Assembly: GCA_937923175.1 (NCBI GenBank)
Contig: CALALB010000017.1
Coordinates: 1 to 64,000, forward strand
Source of the DNA: an uncultured Chromatiaceae bacterium
GTDB taxonomy: Bacteria; Pseudomonadota; Gammaproteobacteria; Chromatiales; Chromatiaceae
Reading direction: 5' to 3'
DNA length: 64,000 bases
Below the pieces are notes generated by a model. The model ran no database searches and was not told the DNA's origin. It saw only the letters and a list, made by a program, of their open reading frames with translations. Positions 1 to 11,025 of the stretch are shown one piece after another. Made by a program: the position numbers and the translations under genes. How positions within the stretch are numbered: position 1 is the first letter of the stretch; each line of letters begins with the position of its first letter.

Positions 1-26
1 AAAACACCCCATCACTGAGGGGTTAC
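1..26. repeat. 26-nt intergenic repeat copy 1 (aaaacaccccatcactgaggggttac), 5-bp stem hairpin
   Basis: Identical 26-mer at 1-26 and 7193-7218; contains ACCCC-N8-GGGGT inverted repeat. Confidence 0.8.
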
Positions 27-219
27 AAAGGGAACACCCTCGGTTCTTCCTCATGGAAGGATCTACGGGAAGCCCGAGCAAGATGAGTTTTAGATCAACC
101 TCTACGCAAACCATAAACAGACGGAGATTGATTTTTGTGAGGGTTAATAGTATGTTTAATGGTATTGACGTTCAACCAAGGATCAAAAGGATTTCTTTTT
201 CACAACCCATGGAGGAGGT

Positions 220-708
220 GTGAGCATGCAAGTCTTGATTCTCTATTATTCAAAAGGCGGACATACTCGTAAATTGGCAGAAAAGATTGCGGAAGGGGTA
301 AACTCGGTTGCAGGGGTTCAGGCGCTTCTTAAATCAACCCAGGAAGTAACCCAGGACGATTTTTTAAACTCCGCCGGCATCATTGCAGGTTCTCCAGTCT
401 ATTTTGGAGCCCTGGCGTGGGATTTGAAGCGGATCTTCGACGAGTATGTAGGGATTCGAAAAAAGATGGAGAACAAAGTCGGAGCTGCTTTCGCCACCTC
501 AGGAGATCCCTCGGGAGGAAAAGAGACAACAATGATGTCCATCCTACAGTGCATGCTCATCTATGGAATGATCATCGTTGGAGACCCGATGGAAGCAACC
601 GGTCATTACGGGGTGGCCTGTGTGGGCGCTCCGGATGAAAAAGCCTCAGAGAATGGCCGCAAATTAGGGAAACGGGTGGCTGAACTCTGCAAAAAGTTGA
701 CCTCCTGA
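220..708 (+). CDS. flavodoxin family / NAD(P)H:quinone oxidoreductase-like (WrbA-like) protein
   Basis: N-term ILYYSKGGHTRKLAEKIAEGV and GSPVYFGALAWDLK flavodoxin-like FMN loops; RBS ggaggaggtg suggests ATG at 226. Confidence 0.8.
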   Translation: MSMQVLILYYSKGGHTRKLAEKIAEGVNSVAGVQALLKSTQEVTQDDFLNSAGIIAGSPVYFGALAWDLKRIFDEYVGIRKKMENKVGAAFATSGDPSGGKETTMMSILQCMLIYGMIIVGDPMEATGHYGVACVGAPDEKASENGRKLGKRVAELCKKLTS

Positions 709-723
709 GATGGATCATGCCTG

Positions 724-1617
724 ATGTCAGCAAAGAACCAACGTATTGGCCATCTTTTCCTGATGATTGTCATCTTAACCTGGGGAGCAAACTACGGGAT
801 TGTTAAATCTGCTTTTGTTGATTTACCACCTGTTCTCTTTGGAGCCATTCGTTTTACGCTCTGCGGTCTACTTGTCCTTCTTCTAACCTTAAAAAGGGAA
901 GGAACCATTTCTATTCAAAAGCAGGACATCGGAAAGGTAGCCTGGGTTGGGATCTTGGGTATTGGAGTTTACCAGATCCTCTGGTCCGTCGGTCTAAATT
1001 TGACTTCTGCTTCTAATTCCGCCTTGATTCTTTCGAGCACACCTCTCTGGGGCGCCCTCTATGTTCATCTCGTCGAGAAAGAAACCGTCACCTGGAAACA
1101 GTACTTCTATATGCTCACTTCTCTCTTTGGAGTCACGCTCGTTATTCTCAAACCCACAGCCAGGCTCCAACTCTCTCTTGATACGCTTCCAGGTGATCTC
1201 CTATCCCTGGTGGCTGCCTTCTGCGCCGCCGTCTTCCTTTCGGTCTGGTCGAAACCCCTTTTGAAGATCTATTCTCCTCTTCGACTGATGGGATACTGCA
1301 TGATGATCGGTGCATTCGTGCTTTGGCTGGCTGTTCCTGTGATGGCGCCTTTTGTTGCCTTTCATCAGGTGAGCCTAAAATCGTGGGTGGCTTTGGTGTA
1401 TGCTATTTTTCTACCAGGGATTGTCGGCCATGTCTTCTATTATGGCGGAATCGAAAAACTCGGAGTCACCCGTTCTATGGTTTACCTCTATTTCATTCCA
1501 TTATGGGCCATTTGGGTGAACTATTTCTGGATGGGCGAGACAATTTTTCTCCAGCAGCTTATCGGAGGGGTGTTCATCTTCTTTGGAGTCCATGGTTCCC
1601 TCCGTCTCGCTCATTGA
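724..1617 (+). CDS. EamA/DMT superfamily transporter
   Basis: About 10 hydrophobic segments, WGANYGIVKSAF and SNSALILSSTPLWGAL motifs. Confidence 0.85.
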   Translation: MSAKNQRIGHLFLMIVILTWGANYGIVKSAFVDLPPVLFGAIRFTLCGLLVLLLTLKREGTISIQKQDIGKVAWVGILGIGVYQILWSVGLNLTSASNSALILSSTPLWGALYVHLVEKETVTWKQYFYMLTSLFGVTLVILKPTARLQLSLDTLPGDLLSLVAAFCAAVFLSVWSKPLLKIYSPLRLMGYCMMIGAFVLWLAVPVMAPFVAFHQVSLKSWVALVYAIFLPGIVGHVFYYGGIEKLGVTRSMVYLYFIPLWAIWVNYFWMGETIFLQQLIGGVFIFFGVHGSLRLAH

Positions 1618-2420
1618 AGATCCTCTTTCCAAGAGAAAGTTTTTAAAAACCCAAGCAGATGGGTGTTGAATGCCTCAGCCTGTTCCACGTTGGAAAGATG
1701 ACGGCAATGGGGAAGGATGACCAATGTCGAATTTTTAATCTGCCCGTGGATGGCTTGTGAAGCAGAAACTGGCGTTGCAGGATCATCCTCTCCGACGAGG
1801 ACCATTGTGGGAAGTGATATGTCACGGAGGCGATCAAGATAATTGAGCTTTCGAATAGCAGAGGCGCATCCGATATAACCTTCCGGGGGGGTAGCCAAAA
1901 ATTCTTCCTCAATGACTTTGAGCATGGGAGGATTCAATCTGCGGTAGGATGGCGTGAACCATCGGTCCATGGTCGCCTCAAATTGGGAGAACATCCCTTG
2001 GGTTCGCACGGCTTCAATCCTCTCCTCCCAGATGGGTTGCATCTCTTCAGGAATCACGGCCGAGGTATCACAAAGGGTTAGGCTTAAAAGGCGCTGGGGA
2101 TAATGGAGTGCTACCGCTTGACCAATCATTCCTCCCATCGAGAGCCCCACCCAGTGAACCCGATCAATCCCTAAAAAATTCAATAATCCGATCGCATCCT
2201 CGCACAGGAGTTCAAGCGTATAGGGTGCGGGGGTCACCTCGCTTTTCCCATGGCCCCGAGTGTCATAACGGAGAACCTGAAAGTGAGATCTTAACCCCTC
2301 CATCTGAGGTTCCCACATCTTAAAACTGGAAGCCAGAGAATGGCTCAGCATGACGGTAGGACGGCGCTCTCGTCCGGAAAGTTCATAATGAACTTCTATC
2401 TGGTTCACTTTCATACGCAT
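1611..2420 (-). CDS. alpha/beta fold hydrolase (3-oxoadipate enol-lactonase-like)
   Basis: GLSMGGMIGQ nucleophile elbow, DTRGHGKS, GEDDPATP, C-terminal His. Confidence 0.85.
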   Translation of the reverse strand: MRMKVNQIEVHYELSGRERRPTVMLSHSLASSFKMWEPQMEGLRSHFQVLRYDTRGHGKSEVTPAPYTLELLCEDAIGLLNFLGIDRVHWVGLSMGGMIGQAVALHYPQRLLSLTLCDTSAVIPEEMQPIWEERIEAVRTQGMFSQFEATMDRWFTPSYRRLNPPMLKVIEEEFLATPPEGYIGCASAIRKLNYLDRLRDISLPTMVLVGEDDPATPVSASQAIHGQIKNSTLVILPHCRHLSNVEQAEAFNTHLLGFLKTFSWKEDLQ

Positions 2421-2482
2421 CTTTTTCTCCTAAAGGTTCATGAAGTACCCCAAAGGACTCCATGTTTTAAAGGATAACATGT

Positions 2483-3529
2483 TCACTCTTCAAACGGTTT
2501 TCGATAACCAATTTCAAGACCTGGCGCAATAAACGGTAAGGTGAGAATGATGTCTTGATTTTCATCCATGCTGTACCCAACGATCTTTAGCATCAGGGAA
2601 TAAGGCCTTGTCCCCGGAAGAAACCTCTTCTCTTCCAGTATCACCTTTTTTAGCAACGATCTCATATCATGAAAATGCTTTGAGTTTAAAATCTCTCGAC
2701 CCTCAACTCCCTCAAGAAGATGACGATATTCCAGCAAGGTGCCTTTCAACTCCTCCCAGTCGGAGATTCCCACCCAATGACGGAGTTCCTCCTTTAGGGT
2801 TTTTAGGGTATGGTCCAGCCAAAACACTCTCTCTTTTGGTTCCACATCTAAATGAGTTTCTCCATCCCAGAACACAGGAGGGCCTCCATCCAACCCGAAC
2901 TTTTCGGGATCAAGATAGGCCATGGTTCGATTCTCTATATTGAGATAATAAAGCGTAATATGAAGGTGAGGAGTCTGGATAAAACGATTCCTCAAGAACC
3001 CTGTCCCCGAATTCCCCGAGAGTGCGACGATCTGACCCCTTAAGAGAGGCCTCACTCCCTCTTCTGGAGCTTGTTTCACCTCTCCTTTTAAAAAATACCT
3101 GCGATCAGAAAAAATTTTATTTAAGTGACCATAACTGACACGATAGGAGGGACGATACTTGTTGATCAATAAAATATAGATGGAACCATGCTTATCCTTT
3201 GTGGCTTGCCTTAAATAAGAAGCCATCATTGGAACCAGTGGCGTGTTCATTGGTACATCATAATCGACTCCTGGCGTGGCTCCCCCTTGGATATGTCCAT
3301 GAAAATGGCTTGGCCCTCCATAGGCGGCTGACCAGCGAAGAGGAGGGCCATAAATGGGATCCCAATATTTTAAGAACCGTTCATCATATTCATAAAGGAA
3401 GGGCTCTTTGGGAGTCAGGCTTCCAGCAAACTTTCCGGTACAACTCCAAAGGGCCTGATGGAATAACCCCACCCCAAGAGCCATTTGACTGGCTTTTTTT
3501 AAGAGATCTCTTCGGGTAAAATCCTGCAT
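2483..3529 (-). CDS. Tat-signal, M23/lysostaphin-fold peptidase-like exported protein
   Basis: N-term FTRRDLLKKASQMALG twin-Arg motif; HIQGGATPGVDYDVPMNTPLVPM and HLHITLY resemble M23 zinc motifs. Confidence 0.65.
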   Translation of the reverse strand: MQDFTRRDLLKKASQMALGVGLFHQALWSCTGKFAGSLTPKEPFLYEYDERFLKYWDPIYGPPLRWSAAYGGPSHFHGHIQGGATPGVDYDVPMNTPLVPMMASYLRQATKDKHGSIYILLINKYRPSYRVSYGHLNKIFSDRRYFLKGEVKQAPEEGVRPLLRGQIVALSGNSGTGFLRNRFIQTPHLHITLYYLNIENRTMAYLDPEKFGLDGGPPVFWDGETHLDVEPKERVFWLDHTLKTLKEELRHWVGISDWEELKGTLLEYRHLLEGVEGREILNSKHFHDMRSLLKKVILEEKRFLPGTRPYSLMLKIVGYSMDENQDIILTLPFIAPGLEIGYRKPFEE

Positions 3530-3657
3530 GGTTGATCTGACCCCTTCCGGATCACTATCTTATGTGTAACTGATCCGGTTATCGTTAGGCAACTTCCTCA
3601 TTGCATTGGGAAAAAGATAAGTTAAAATTATGTAAAAATCTCATCAGGAGGTGTACT

Positions 3658-4035
3658 GTGCAAAGAAGAGAATTTCTTTTATCCTTGCCTTTCTTTTTCC
3701 TTACCCTCCATGCAGGAGTTGCACTCGCAAATAAAGCTTCAACTTCTATCGAAGCTCCTCAAGTTGTCCCCAAAGGGTCGGAGGCTGTTATTCGTGTGAC
3801 TGTCACCCATAAAGGAAACAGTTTTCTTCACTACACTAAATCCCTCCAGGTCGGAGCCAATAAAAAGGAGATTGCTCGATGGGATTTTTCGGCAAACGAA
3901 AGACCTGAGTCAGAGATCTTTACCAGAGAGGTCAAACTAACCGTCCTTGAAGACACGGAAATAATGGCTGAGGCACATTGTAATATCCATGGAAGCACCG
4001 GACCCGCGACAGTAAAGATTGCTGTCAGGGGATAG
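3658..4035 (+). CDS. exported desulfoferrodoxin/superoxide reductase-like protein
   Basis: GTG start at 3658 behind aggaggtg; signal QRREFLLSLPFFFLTLHAGVALA; VTHKGNSFLHY and CNIHG metal-site motifs. Confidence 0.6.
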   Translation: MQRREFLLSLPFFFLTLHAGVALANKASTSIEAPQVVPKGSEAVIRVTVTHKGNSFLHYTKSLQVGANKKEIARWDFSANERPESEIFTREVKLTVLEDTEIMAEAHCNIHGSTGPATVKIAVRG

Positions 4036-4099
4036 ACTCCATAAGGAACCCTATCAAAGAATCAAAAATGATTCAATGGGGTGAAGGAGGGTTTATTTC

Positions 4100-4282
4100 A
4101 TGACTCTGGGTGGGATATCGATCATTCTGATTTTGGGAATTTTAAACTTTCTGTTAATCCTCTTTCAGTTAAGTTCGGGGCGTCGATGGATTAAGGTCCC
4201 TTTTGGAGTCCATCGAAAAACAGGCACAATCCTTTTAATCAGCGCCACGATCCATGCCGTCCTGGCTTTCTTAGCTTCATAA
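4100..4282 (+). CDS. 60-aa two-helix membrane protein with paired His
   Basis: Hydrophobic ORF with HRKTGTILLISATIHA segment; follows the SOR-like gene on the same strand. Confidence 0.55.
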   Translation: MTLGGISIILILGILNFLLILFQLSSGRRWIKVPFGVHRKTGTILLISATIHAVLAFLAS

Positions 4283-4305
4283 AGAAAAGCCAGAGCGGGC
4301 ACCAT

Positions 4306-4750
4306 CTAGATTGCTTCATCAAGAAGATAGTCCCAATATCCTGTAAATTCCTTACGACTGATCACGCGAACCGCTTGAACAGCATTGTCTTCTCCATACC
4401 CTGCAATCACAAGCGATTCTCCCTCCTCAACCTTTTAGGATTGCCCCAGTTTGATTGGTTTTACCTGGAGAGGAGTTTCCGCGTCTTCAAAAGCCCGAAT
4501 CCCGTGGCAGGGTCGTATCCTGTTGAAGGTAGCTTTAACCGGTTTCCCTGCAAAAGTCGTTACTGCGATCGATTCTGCCTCGATGATGAGGTAGCCAATC
4601 ATAAGAATGTGCCCTTGGGATTCGATGAACACACCATTGCCTTCTCGTTTTATTCTCGGAGTCTGGGCAGGATGGGCTTCTTCGGGTATCATTGAAGGCT
4701 TGATAAAAAATGATGAAAAACCAGTTTCTCATCATCTCATCCCGCCTTTC
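4306..4750 (-). pseudogene. trypsin-like serine protease remnant
   Basis: GNGVFIESQGHILMIGYLIIEAESIAVTTFAGKPVKA resembles HtrA-type N-domain, but an in-frame TAA at 4437-4435 is followed by KVEEGESLVIAGYGEDNAVQAVRVISRKEFTGYWDYLLDEAI. Confidence 0.5.
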
Positions 4751-4874
4751 TCTCCTCATTTTATAAAAGGAGGGCCTTTGTGTTTGGCCCATTTTTCCCA
4801 TAGTGGAGATTGACCCCCTTCATCAAATGATACCGGTCACTTTTTAAGATGAAGGGGATGGTTACACCGGTGAG

Positions 4875-6179
4875 TCAGGGGAGAGGCTTCCAGGAGAAAA
4901 GCCTCCTGTAGGCAGAGTCTATTTTATCGTCTGGTAATTTCTCTTCTTTGAATAAGGCGTTACGGGACTTAATAAATTCTTTGATGTGACTCTCACGCAT
5001 AAAAGGAGGCTGATCCATTTGTAGTTTTCCACTTAAGAGAGAGGTCCAGTCTGGAAAGGAGAAGGTCCCATCTTGGACGTTCCACTCATAGGGGGTTATC
5101 CCTCGGTGGGTCATTCGATCTCCTGGATTCACTTTTGCCAGCACCTCATGAGCCATGCGAACCGTGCCAGTATGGAGTTCAATGAGCGTATCCATATCCG
5201 AATAGCCTCCTGCCAATACCCAAGTTACTGGAATATGAAGCAACCGTGCCAAAGCAAAGACATAGGCGTCCCTGATCGCAAGAGCTTTCTTGGTGATCCC
5301 TGCACTGTCGTAAGGATCCATTCCCGCCTGGTAGAGGATCAGATCCGGGTTCTGATGTTTGATGAGCTTGGGGAGAATCTCCGAAATGACCGCGAGATAA
5401 TGGACATCTCGTCTTTCACCGATCTCAAACATTCCGTGTTGAACCTGAAAGACACGGTTATTTTCTGATGTGGGAGGCCCTCCCATAGGACTGCCGAAAA
5501 TGGAAACATTCCATATCCTGGAATGTCCGATGATACATTCTGCGGTTCCATTCCCTTCATGTTGATCGAGGTCAATGATCATCACTTGTTTTGCCATCCC
5601 CTCTCGAATGAGCTTATGAGCGACCACGACCAGCCCATTGATCGTACAGAAGCCAGATCCACGGTTTGCGGTAGCATGATGATATCCGTGGCCGAGATTG
5701 GCTGTAATTGTCTTCTTCACAAGGGCTGTCTTAGCAGCAGCATAGAGTCCGCCCACGTTGAGGAGCCACCCTCTTGCGATGCTTTCATTCCAAAAGGGAA
5801 GTCCCTGGGAAGTGGCCAGATGAAGAGGTTCTCCGGTGAAGAGGGCCTTTAAATAGCGATCCGTATGAACCTGACGGAGGCTTTCAAGATCGATGGGGGG
5901 TGCCTCGGCTGACCTTCCAATGACCAGGGGGTGGTCTGTGTGAATCTGCTCTGGATGGATAAGGCGGTTTCGCCATATCGCTTCAAAGATCATAGGCATT
6001 TTGGTCGGTCCTGTAAGTGCTGACATACCTGATCGAGGCCCTATCAGCCCCCCAGGGTAGCCCGTATGATACCAGATCTCTTGTTTTGGCTGCCCCGTCA
6101 CAGAGGAGGGAAAAAGAACCAGGCCAATAAACCCAATGATTATGATTATGAGGAAGAACAGAAAAGAGAGACGGTGCAT
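4875..6179 (-). CDS. histone deacetylase superfamily protein with N-terminal signal/TM
   Basis: GHGYHHA, DLDQHEGNG, QAGMDPYDSAG, LAGGYSD motifs; N-term FLFFLIIIIIGFIGLVLF. Confidence 0.85.
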   Translation of the reverse strand: MHRLSFLFFLIIIIIGFIGLVLFPSSVTGQPKQEIWYHTGYPGGLIGPRSGMSALTGPTKMPMIFEAIWRNRLIHPEQIHTDHPLVIGRSAEAPPIDLESLRQVHTDRYLKALFTGEPLHLATSQGLPFWNESIARGWLLNVGGLYAAAKTALVKKTITANLGHGYHHATANRGSGFCTINGLVVVAHKLIREGMAKQVMIIDLDQHEGNGTAECIIGHSRIWNVSIFGSPMGGPPTSENNRVFQVQHGMFEIGERRDVHYLAVISEILPKLIKHQNPDLILYQAGMDPYDSAGITKKALAIRDAYVFALARLLHIPVTWVLAGGYSDMDTLIELHTGTVRMAHEVLAKVNPGDRMTHRGITPYEWNVQDGTFSFPDWTSLLSGKLQMDQPPFMRESHIKEFIKSRNALFKEEKLPDDKIDSAYRRLFSWKPLP

Positions 6180-6183
6180 TTTC

Positions 6184-6954
6184 CTAAGTCAGAAAAGGCT
6201 CCCAATGTTGCAGGGTTTCAAGAATGTACCCCGCCGGCAGTTTTGTGACGGTGCGGTTATGACCCGGTAGAAGGATGGCCACGTCCAATTCCGAAAGCCT
6301 CATTAAGGACTCTTTGAGGACCGTTCCATCTGCGCCATAGAGATCGAAGCGACCGATCGCATGATCTGCATAGATGACATCCCCAGGAATAAGAGCCTTC
6401 TCAGGAGCATAATAAAGACCGATACTCCCGAGAGAATGTCCTGGGATATGGATTACATCCCATGTCATTCCTCCGATCTTGAGGATCTCCCCTCCCTTTA
6501 ATTTGCGGTCAATACGAAACCGAAACGATCCTCCCTTGATCTTATACTGCATCTGGCAGATCTGCTGAAACATCTCCATGCCATAGACCGACCGTTCGTC
6601 TCCTAATTCTAACGGATCTCCTTCTGCCTGATGCACCCATAATTCTGCCCAAGGAATTCTCTTCTGAATCTCTGAAAGGGCACCAATATGATCGAAATGA
6701 GTATGGGTCATAATCACCCTTCGAATGTCTTCCAATTCGATTCCCATCTTCAAAATCGAATCGATCTTATCATTCCCCTTCCCAACAAGCCCTGGATCGA
6801 TCAGGGAAAGATCTTTCGAAGAGGGGTGGCCAATTAAGTAGGTATGAGAATCCGGCATCATCTCATCCTGTCCGGGTATCATATAGAGGCCTTCTATTAT
6901 TTTGCTCATCATCCCCCCCGATTGAACCGTATTTGTTATCGAATAACCTAACAA
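6184..6954 (-). CDS. MBL fold metallo-hydrolase
   Basis: THTHFDHIG, IPGHSLGSIGLY, GDVIYADHAIGRFD motifs. Confidence 0.9.
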   Translation of the reverse strand: MLGYSITNTVQSGGMMSKIIEGLYMIPGQDEMMPDSHTYLIGHPSSKDLSLIDPGLVGKGNDKIDSILKMGIELEDIRRVIMTHTHFDHIGALSEIQKRIPWAELWVHQAEGDPLELGDERSVYGMEMFQQICQMQYKIKGGSFRFRIDRKLKGGEILKIGGMTWDVIHIPGHSLGSIGLYYAPEKALIPGDVIYADHAIGRFDLYGADGTVLKESLMRLSELDVAILLPGHNRTVTKLPAGYILETLQHWEPFLT

Positions 6955-7192
6955 AGGGAGACTGTCAATTGAATGGTGACTTGACCAGTAACTCCTCAGT
7001 TAAAGAAATAAAAAAGGGTTGGGAGGTTGCTTCGGAAAAACCTTGAAGCGAAACCTCTGTTCGTCAAAACGACCCAATCTGATTCAAAAAAACCGATTCA
7101 AAGGACATAAGGGCCCTGATGAGGGTAATTTTCTATAATTATAACCGCTATTCAAGGTTTTGGAGGAGGAACGTTCCAACCCTTTTAAACCG

Positions 7193-7218
7193 AAAACACC
7201 CCATCACTGAGGGGTTAC
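7193..7218. repeat. 26-nt intergenic repeat copy 2
   Basis: Identical to 1-26. Confidence 0.8.
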
Positions 7219-7314
7219 GGATTCATTCAGCCAACGGGTTTTCCTCTTATTCCAGAAGAAAAGAGATCGTCGGGGGGTACGCTATGCTCCATGGGCTAAG
7301 CGCTTTGCTTTCTT

Positions 7315-9489
7315 TTACACATGGACAGGGAGTTCGATGAGAAAGGTCGTTCCTTTGGGTTTGTTGTCCCGAACCCGGATGTATCCATTATGGTCTGCGA
7401 TAATCGCATTCACAATGGTTAATCCCAGCCCCGTTCCGCTCTTTTTGGTGGAATAGTAGGGTTCAAAGAGCTTCCCTTTGTCTTCGTCTGGAATTCCACA
7501 TCCATTATCGCTTACCTCGAGGCGGACCATCTGTAGCTTTGGATCATAACTGGTCTGGATTTTGATCTCTCCGTCCTTTTCAATAGCTGCCAGACTGTTC
7601 TTGATGAGATTGATCATCACTCGCTTCATCTGATCCCGATCAAGATTTAAAACAGGAAGCTCCTGGGGGACAAAATCAAATCGGGTCTCTTTATGAGCCT
7701 CCTTAAAGAGAATGAGTGTCTCTTGAATAATCTCGTTAAGGTGATTGGGAGTTGGGTTCGATGCGGGCATTCGGGCAAAATTTGAAAATTCATTGACCAT
7801 CCCCTTCAACTCTTCAACCTGTTTTACAATGGTAGAAGTACATTCATCAAACACGGCTCCATCCTGCCCGAGTTTTTCCAGATAACGCTTTCGCAACCGT
7901 TGAGCAGAGAGCTGAATCGGGGTAAGGGGATTCTTGATCTCATGGGCGATCCTCCGAGCGACTTCCCTCCAGGCAGCCACCCTCTGGGCTTTCATCAGTT
8001 GGGTCAGATCGTCAAAGACCGCTACAAACCCGAGGGGTTTCCCCTCCTCGTCCTTGAGGGTGGTCAGATTGATGAGCAGGGAGAGGGATTTCCCACCTAA
8101 TCGGACGGTCACCTGCCTTTCGATCGAATCTTTTTGTGACATCCGGAGCTCTTCCAGCATTTCCTCGATTTTCACGACATATTCTGGATTCAATACTTCA
8201 GTAAACTTTTTATCAAGGATGTCTTGGCCTTTCACCTCCAACATCTGTTCCGCAGAAGTATTGATGGTGGTGATCACCCCGCGATTGTCTATGGAGATAA
8301 CCCCTGCGGCTACGTTCTTAAGCACAATTTCCATATATTTTTTTCTCTGTTCCAGTTCTGAACGACTCACCTGGAGATCCCCCGTCATCTGATTAAAGGA
8401 TTGGACGAGTTTTCCAATCTCATCGCTTGCCTTCATCTCAATTCGGACATTTAGATCTCCCTCAGCAATCCGGTGGGTGGCCTCTGCGAGTTCTTTAATC
8501 GGACCCGTGATATCCCGGGCCAATCGGATGCCAAACCAGATGGCTGAAAAGACAATGAGAAGGGTGACCATCAACAGCGCCATCATATAACTGAACTTGA
8601 TAGGCTTTTTCAGAACCTTCAACTGTTTATAATCAACAAAGGCCTGTGAGATCTCACGCATCTTTCCCGCAAGGCTCTTCGGAATAAAGTATGATGCTAC
8701 CACTACGCCAATCACCTCCCCCTGATCCGAGGAGGGGAAGAGGGGAGCAATCCCTGTAATCATTTCTCCCTCTCCAACGGGCAGAGTTCGGGAGATTTCC
8801 TTCCCCGAAAAACCCACCTCCAGGAGGTCTTTGGGCGGCGGTATCGAGATGGTCTTCAGAGTAGGGTCTTCCACTCGAATTGCTCCCTCTCCGTCTTTCA
8901 TAAAGAGTCCGAGGGCGCTCAGATGGTATTCCCGTCGTTTTAATTCAAGCGTTTCTTTCAGTGGAGCCGTGAATTTACCGTTCTTCACCATGGATTGATG
9001 AACCAGATGCTTGCTGATCTGCCTGGCAGAGGAGACGCACTGGTTTGCAAAATCTCGGTAGTAGGTCTGGGCGACTTCTAAAGATCCCTGGAGAGATTGT
9101 TCGACCTGAGCCTTAAACCAGTGGTCCACACTGTTGGTAATAAATCCAACAGCAACGAAGAAGAGAAGAAAGGTGGGGATAAACGTGAGGCTCATAAAAG
9201 CGACAACCAGTTTGGTTCTGAGTTTAGCCCCCAAAATCTCCCTTTTCCTTTCAAAGACCAGTTTGACAAGGTTCCGGATCACAAGGAAGATGAGAAGGAG
9301 GATAAGGATGATGTTGATGTTGATGAGACTGAAAATGATGATGTTGTTGGCAATTGGAATCTGTTCCCCCACCAGAGGGATTTTCATTTCGAGAGTGGTG
9401 AGAAGAACGATTAGGATGGCGATGATACCGATGATGATGAGTTCGTTCCGTCGTCTTCTCTGATCTGCAGTGAGTTCCTTTTTCGTCAT
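7315..9489 (-). CDS. NtrY-like membrane sensor histidine kinase (HAMP-PAS-HisKA-HATPase)
   Basis: N-terminal TMs, HAMP, PAS, VARRIAHEIKNPLTPIQLSAQRLRKRY H-box, DNGCGIPDEDKGKLFEPYYSTKKSGTGLGL. Confidence 0.92.
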   Translation of the reverse strand: MTKKELTADQRRRRNELIIIGIIAILIVLLTTLEMKIPLVGEQIPIANNIIIFSLININIILILLLIFLVIRNLVKLVFERKREILGAKLRTKLVVAFMSLTFIPTFLLFFVAVGFITNSVDHWFKAQVEQSLQGSLEVAQTYYRDFANQCVSSARQISKHLVHQSMVKNGKFTAPLKETLELKRREYHLSALGLFMKDGEGAIRVEDPTLKTISIPPPKDLLEVGFSGKEISRTLPVGEGEMITGIAPLFPSSDQGEVIGVVVASYFIPKSLAGKMREISQAFVDYKQLKVLKKPIKFSYMMALLMVTLLIVFSAIWFGIRLARDITGPIKELAEATHRIAEGDLNVRIEMKASDEIGKLVQSFNQMTGDLQVSRSELEQRKKYMEIVLKNVAAGVISIDNRGVITTINTSAEQMLEVKGQDILDKKFTEVLNPEYVVKIEEMLEELRMSQKDSIERQVTVRLGGKSLSLLINLTTLKDEEGKPLGFVAVFDDLTQLMKAQRVAAWREVARRIAHEIKNPLTPIQLSAQRLRKRYLEKLGQDGAVFDECTSTIVKQVEELKGMVNEFSNFARMPASNPTPNHLNEIIQETLILFKEAHKETRFDFVPQELPVLNLDRDQMKRVMINLIKNSLAAIEKDGEIKIQTSYDPKLQMVRLEVSDNGCGIPDEDKGKLFEPYYSTKKSGTGLGLTIVNAIIADHNGYIRVRDNKPKGTTFLIELPVHV

Positions 9490-9684
9490 ACAGGCATGTA
9501 GATTAGGGTAAGGGCGACGAAGATCGTTTTTTCTCGTTGTTCAGTGCTTATCGACCTTTGCTAACGGTTAGGCAAAAAGAATGACGAGATCATCCCTGAA
9601 ACCCTTTATGATCGAAACAAGTCTCGTCACCCTCCCCTAACATCCTTCCACGTTCTCGTTTTTTAAATAGAGGGGATTCGAAAG

Positions 9685-10096
9685 GGACAATAAGCCGAGT
9701 TCTGTGTTCCGACTTCTCTTTCCCGATAGGTCGAAATGATGGCCATTTATCTGGGATTCTGATTGCTCAGAACCTCAAGCGACCTAACCCGTCCCGCCCT
9801 TATTCCATTCTACCGGAATAAATTTGAATGGGCAGTTCTTATCCCCCTGGACGGGGAGAAGCGGGACCTATTTGGTCTTGCTCCGGGTGGGGTTTACCCT
9901 GCCGTTGGTGTTACCACCAACGCGGTGCGCTCTTACCGCACCTTTTCACCCTTACCGACTGGAGCCCAGCCGGCGGTTTGTTTTCTGTGGCACTGTCCGT
10001 GGACTCGCGTCCCCCAGGCGTTACCTGGCACCCTGCCCGCTGGAGCCCGGACTTTCCTCCCCTTCCAGATAGAAAGGGCGACTGTCTGGCCAACTC
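9685..10096 (-). ncRNA. rnpB: RNase P RNA (bacterial type A), apparently chimeric
   Basis: Minus strand contains ggggaggaaagtccgggctcc, gccaggtaacgcctggggg, ggtgcggtaagagcgcaccgc, accccacccggagcaagaccaaatagg, acagaactcggctta conserved RnpB blocks; 5' and 3' ends not complementary. Confidence 0.92.
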
Positions 10097-10101
10097 CCGA
10101 A

Positions 10102-10164: not shown

Positions 10165-11025
10165 CTAGCGGCGAGCGCCCAGACCGCGCTCCAAGCCAAG
10201 CCGATACAGCTCGGATTTATGGACACCGGTCAAGCGGGCGGTCAGGGCAGCGGCCTGAGCCAGAGGGAGGGTTTCGGCTAGGATGCGCAGGGTACGCAAG
10301 ACCTCGCCGGAGACGGCCTTCGGCTCAGAGGGAGGACAGCCTTCGATGAGGATCACCAATTCACCGCGCCGCTGATCGGCATCGGCCTGCAAACAGGCGC
10401 TCAGTTCGCCCACCGATCCGCATAAAAAGGTCTCAAAACGTTTGGTGAGCTCGCGGGCGATCACGAGCCGCCGCCCTGCACCGAACACCGCCTGCAGATC
10501 TGCAAGGGTCTCTAGCACCCGCTGGGGGCTTTCATAGAGGATCAGGGTGCCGGGCTCCGCGGCGACCGCCTCGAGCCAGGCGCGCCGACGGGACTGGGTG
10601 CGCGGCGGAAAGCCCAAAAACAAAAATCGATCGCTGGGCAGACCGGCTGCAGACAGGGCGCAGATTGCGGCATTGGGACCTGGGATCGGAACGACGCGGA
10701 TACTCCGCGCCCGGGCTGTTGCAACCAGTTGATAACCCGGATCACTGATCAGAGGTGTCCCTGCCTCCGAGACCAAGGCGAGGTGTTCGCCTGCCGCCAG
10801 CCGCGCTAGCAGCCGCGGGGTCATTTCCGATTCATTGTGTTCATGATAGGCGATCAGCTCGGTTGCAATCCCCAGATGGCTCAACAACTGTCGGGTAGTG
10901 CGCGTATCCTCGGCGGCGATGGCAACAACCTCGGCCAACACCTGACGGGCGCGTGCGCTCAGATCCCCGAGATTACCGATCGGTGTCGCCACCACATAGA
11001 GTATTCCGCTCTGAACTTGCATCAA
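10165..11025 (-). CDS. rsmI: 16S rRNA (cytidine(1402)-2'-O)-methyltransferase
   Basis: LYVVATPIGNLGDLSARA, AEDTRTTRQLLSHLGI, SEAGTPLISDPGYQLV, PGPNAAICALSAAGLPSDRFLFLGFPP. Confidence 0.95.
   Translation of the reverse strand: MMQVQSGILYVVATPIGNLGDLSARARQVLAEVVAIAAEDTRTTRQLLSHLGIATELIAYHEHNESEMTPRLLARLAAGEHLALVSEAGTPLISDPGYQLVATARARSIRVVPIPGPNAAICALSAAGLPSDRFLFLGFPPRTQSRRRAWLEAVAAEPGTLILYESPQRVLETLADLQAVFGAGRRLVIARELTKRFETFLCGSVGELSACLQADADQRRGELVILIEGCPPSEPKAVSGEVLRTLRILAETLPLAQAAALTARLTGVHKSELYRLGLERGLGARR

Follow-up and report, generated by a model that had tools for sequence, protein, structure and literature searches.

Contig C17 of a gammaproteobacterial MAG (gamma MAG; 2.53 Mb, 96 contigs) is almost certainly a metagenome mis-assembly, an inter-species chimera joined at the RNase P RNA gene, rnpB. 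The left arm of the contig (1–9866), together with the 3′ half of rnpB on C17, is from a deltaproteobacterium, and the 5′ half of the gene and everything rightward of it are from the gamma MAG. The window analysed is the first 64 kb of C17 (85,152 bases). The chimera was diagnosed by comparison with the parent sequences, pairing of helices, gene order and base composition. The finding holds no new biology.

Pairing and identity of the two halves of rnpB

The rnpB of C17 (9675–10097, minus strand) matched RF00010 end to end with 301.7 bits, the gathering score being 100. In this full-length class A match neither P1 nor P2 was properly paired, and the non-standard pairs were confined to these two helices. 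P1 duplex energy was computed in an identical manner for 36 rnpB genes. The value for C17 as assembled, –8.9 to –9.3 kcal/mol, was the weakest of all, and values of –22.1 to –26.6 kcal/mol were obtained with seven genus-mates. At P2, GACAGTC on the 5′ side lies opposite GGCCATC on the 3′ side without pairing (computed energy –5.6 kcal/mol as assembled). The first-pass annotation, made from the sequence alone, had described the gene as a chimera of two species with misfits at P1 and P2. Both misfits are real, and the chimera is borne out by the two parents described below, whose halves pair when re-sorted.

A match of both halves to the rnpB of one genome, which would speak against a chimera, was looked for and the halves failed to show it. 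The 5′ half (9899–10097, minus strand), preceded by rsmI, is 93.1% identical to the gene of genus-mate G004, versus 45.6% for the 3′ half (9675–9866, minus strand). The latter is the sequence of CALLAL010000008.1 (locus L029) bar one base, at 9853, and it is from 9899 onward that the 5′ half departs from this delta contig. Each half is authentic class A sequence and, as in other class A RNase P RNAs, the core is conserved; the gene differs from them in that its halves derive from two organisms and P1 and P2 are malformed. Rfam score as a test for chimeras was rejected, as natural delta rnpB genes score 251–275 bits against RF00010 and the chimeric gene scores above them. Since the Rfam cut-off is passed three times over and the contamination figure of the gamma MAG bin is low (0.47%), routine checks miss the chimera. 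It is exposed by P1 pairing.

Crossover interval and the parent loci

Identity to the delta contig extends up to 9898, and gamma identity, traced through a second contig of the gamma MAG (C57), extends down to 9867. The crossover therefore lies within 9867–9898 (minus strand), 32 bases of the universal rnpB core over which the delta contig and the gamma 3′ half on C57 do not differ. The sequence of this interval on the minus strand is GGTAAACCCCACCCGGAGCAAGACCAAATAGG. The breakpoint had earlier been placed at 9866–9903, in a near-universal block between the halves; part of the block is indeed shared by both parents, and the position is now narrowed. The second junction described below also lies inside sequence common to both of its parents, and each side of the rnpB join has another continuation elsewhere, the left in contigs of the delta MAG (CALLAL01) and the right in C57.

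On the delta side, the gene next to rnpB encodes an NtrY-like sensor histidine kinase (7315–9489, minus strand) with NtrY_N, HAMP, PAS, HisKA and HATPase_c domains. The protein is 100% identical to that of CALLAL010000008.1, contig C8 of an ‘uncultured bacterium’ MAG (G030), and 75–85% identical to those of fourteen other MAGs, whose names are mostly Deltaproteobacteria or Syntrophaceae. All eight loci scanned, the CALLAL01 contig among them, have an rnpB a short way upstream of the kinase, preceded in turn by a tRNA. The window from 7139 to 9898 tracks contig C8 with two mismatches (7258 and 9853) and diverges from 9899 on. CALLAL01 has its own delta 5′ half of rnpB, which when paired with the C17 3′ half gives –11.8 kcal/mol for P1 and –10.5 kcal/mol for P2. 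The gamma side is absent from the delta MAG, where the match is limited to rnpB itself.

Further to the left, deltaproteobacterial DNA of another locus is found (1–7138), carrying flavodoxin-like, EamA, PcaD-like hydrolase, HDAC-like and MBL-fold genes. Positions 1–7218 differ from contig C25 of the same MAG (G030:C25:19639-26856) by one mismatch in 7218 bases. As 1–7218 matches C25 and 7139–9898 matches C8, the left arm consists of two separate delta loci, with a second junction in the 80 bases common to both contigs (7139–7218). This junction escaped the sequence-only reader. Overall, the left arm agrees at 99.9–100% identity with two contigs of the delta MAG, which is independent of the gamma MAG and has a self-consistent rnpB.

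On the gamma side, the first right-hand gene is rsmI (10165–11025, minus strand; TIGR00096, 275.7 bits), 70–80% identical to rsmI of genus-mates. The assignment of a delta-like NtrY to the left and a gammaproteobacterial rsmI to the right, made earlier, stands. In the genus-mates rsmI, rnpB and mraZ are contiguous (within the short loci compared, mraZ went unrecovered in two of the seven and rsmI in one). The second rnpB of the gamma MAG is on contig C57 (492–857), followed by mraZ, 77–81% identical to genus-mate mraZ, and rsmH. Identity of this gene to G004 is 80.3% in the 5′ half and 95.5% in the 3′ half. As assembled it gives –12.8 kcal/mol at P1 with two mismatches, the next-weakest value after C17 among gamma-type genes. 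When the C17 5′ half was combined with the C57 3′ half, P1 and P2 were restored (–26.3 and –7.5 kcal/mol, respectively). The gamma 3′ half absent from C17 is therefore on C57, beside mraZ–rsmH. Exactly one rnpB was found in all 26 relatives with a match, versus two hybrids and no intact gene in the gamma MAG.

Base composition changes at the same place, as had been noted before. GC is 0.45–0.50 to the left of rnpB and 0.55–0.67 to the right, and at the gene a value of about 0.47 gives way to one of about 0.62. Tetranucleotide correlation with the right arm is 0.07–0.17 for both 1–7130 and 7219–9850, and among parts of the right arm it is 0.97–0.98. From base 740 on, C57 has gamma composition, with a correlation of 0.97–0.98 to the right arm of C17. 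From the identities of the halves, their pairing and the composition, it follows that the gamma rnpB is split over C17 and C57, each of which is joined to something else.

The first 690 bases of C57 are also foreign, comprising a C-terminal stub of rsmI and the rnpB 5′ half of a third organism. The stub is 37% identical to the rsmI of C17. GC of these bases is 0.55 and their tetranucleotide correlation 0.26–0.34, 690 bases being short for such a profile. With its 5′ end (about 690 bases) foreign as well, C57 is mis-joined at the same rnpB core as C17. A simple reciprocal swap, with the C57 5′ half belonging to the C17 3′ half, was rejected; the pair gave –5.5 kcal/mol for P1 and –2.0 kcal/mol for P2. 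The failure of these halves to pair indicates that a third organism is involved. The source of C57:1-500 was not found in 387 genomes of the class, which beyond the MAG itself (G000) gave partial matches of 69–78% and one exact stretch of 22 bases.

Origin of the join

The assembler would have passed from gamma yraN–rsmI and the rnpB 5′ half, through the near-universal core, into the delta rnpB 3′ half, and then, probably by way of a dispersed repeat of 231 bp, crossed a second time to a different locus of the deltaproteobacterium. The sequence that truly continues the gamma rnpB, on the mraZ–rsmH side, would have been left on C57, itself apparently joined at rnpB to the rsmI–rnpB 5′ half of the third organism. 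That the assembly graph rather than nature is the cause is nearly certain, judging from the sequences, because the MAG lacks an intact rnpB, the left arm is of two loci and it is nearly identical to another organism.

Real horizontal transfer, in which a delta segment entered the gamma genome by recombination at rnpB, is highly improbable. A join at base resolution inside a homologous core is also expected from homologous recombination, but the event would leave a genome whose rnpB has broken P1 and P2, with zero intact copies, the second copy being a hybrid too. Moreover, the left arm would have had to come from two separate delta loci, without divergence from the delta MAG (nearly 100% identity), and C57 still carries the 3′ half that belongs to the gamma gene.

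Insertion of a mobile element or genomic island in rnpB, with replacement of its 3′ end, is scarcely credible. An island of the kind that restores its target gene would restore P1, which the left arm fails to do. No integrase was found among the left-arm genes examined, and in the delta MAG the same segment stands in a conserved context of its own, the rnpB–histidine kinase order being conserved chromosomal synteny of deltaproteobacteria. In favour of an island, genes for structural RNAs are known to serve as insertion sites; a literature search for rnpB in this role gave nothing in support, the one paper found mentioning rnpB a single time. A single genuine yet divergent rnpB with unusual P1 and P2 has next to no chance of being correct and was rejected, the full-length RF00010 match at 301.7 bits notwithstanding, as the halves have different nearest relatives (93% vs 46% to one genome) and another organism has the 3′ half with nearly every base the same, together with a 5′ half that matches it.

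Mis-assembly remains the best explanation for C17, and the earlier verdict that no biological link be drawn across the rnpB junction is upheld. The first 9.87 kb of the window, and of the contig, should not be taken for gamma genome. For phylogeny or structure, neither of the two rnpB genes of the gamma MAG is usable whole. A study of a mock community, with joins between Salmonella and Escherichia, reports that its chimeric sequences were located at contig ends without exception (PMC8172020). Similarly, the C17 join is at shared sequence and the foreign parts are terminal, 9.9 kb at the start of the 85-kb C17 and 0.7 kb at the start of C57. Unlike in those chimeras, the parents of C17 are distant relatives and share at the join only the 32-base core of one RNA gene. 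No RNase P RNA chimeras reported as assembly errors were found in the literature searched with the terms used. As the mis-joins at the rnpB core affect two contigs of a single MAG and involve three organisms, we tentatively raise the rather doubtful possibility that metagenome assemblies recurrently cross over at this core; P1/P2 pairing might then serve as a cheap test for chimeras, and rnpB neighbourhoods in public MAGs might be less reliable than thought.

The dispersed repeat at the second junction

The second junction is contained in a dispersed palindromic repeat of the deltaproteobacterium (6988–7218, 231 bp). At least 40 copies, mostly 90–93% identical, are present in the 3.3-Mb delta MAG. 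The gamma MAG has only the window copy and a 26-base end at C17:1-26. The repeat has 13-base inverted ends, GTAACYCCTCAGT...ACTGAGGGGTTAC, and folds as a single long hairpin (–79.5 kcal/mol). It resembles MITE or REP elements; the window scan gave no Rfam match to it at the gathering score. Weaker matches were seen in 10 of 16 other genomes of the family of the delta MAG, with 69–76% identity over long stretches and often of the two ends alone. For the second join, rearrangement between copies of the repeat within the delta population is a possible alternative to an assembly error; either origin leaves the main verdict unchanged. The start of C17 is inside another copy of the repeat (1–26 is identical to 7193–7218), as is usual for a contig that ends at a repeat.
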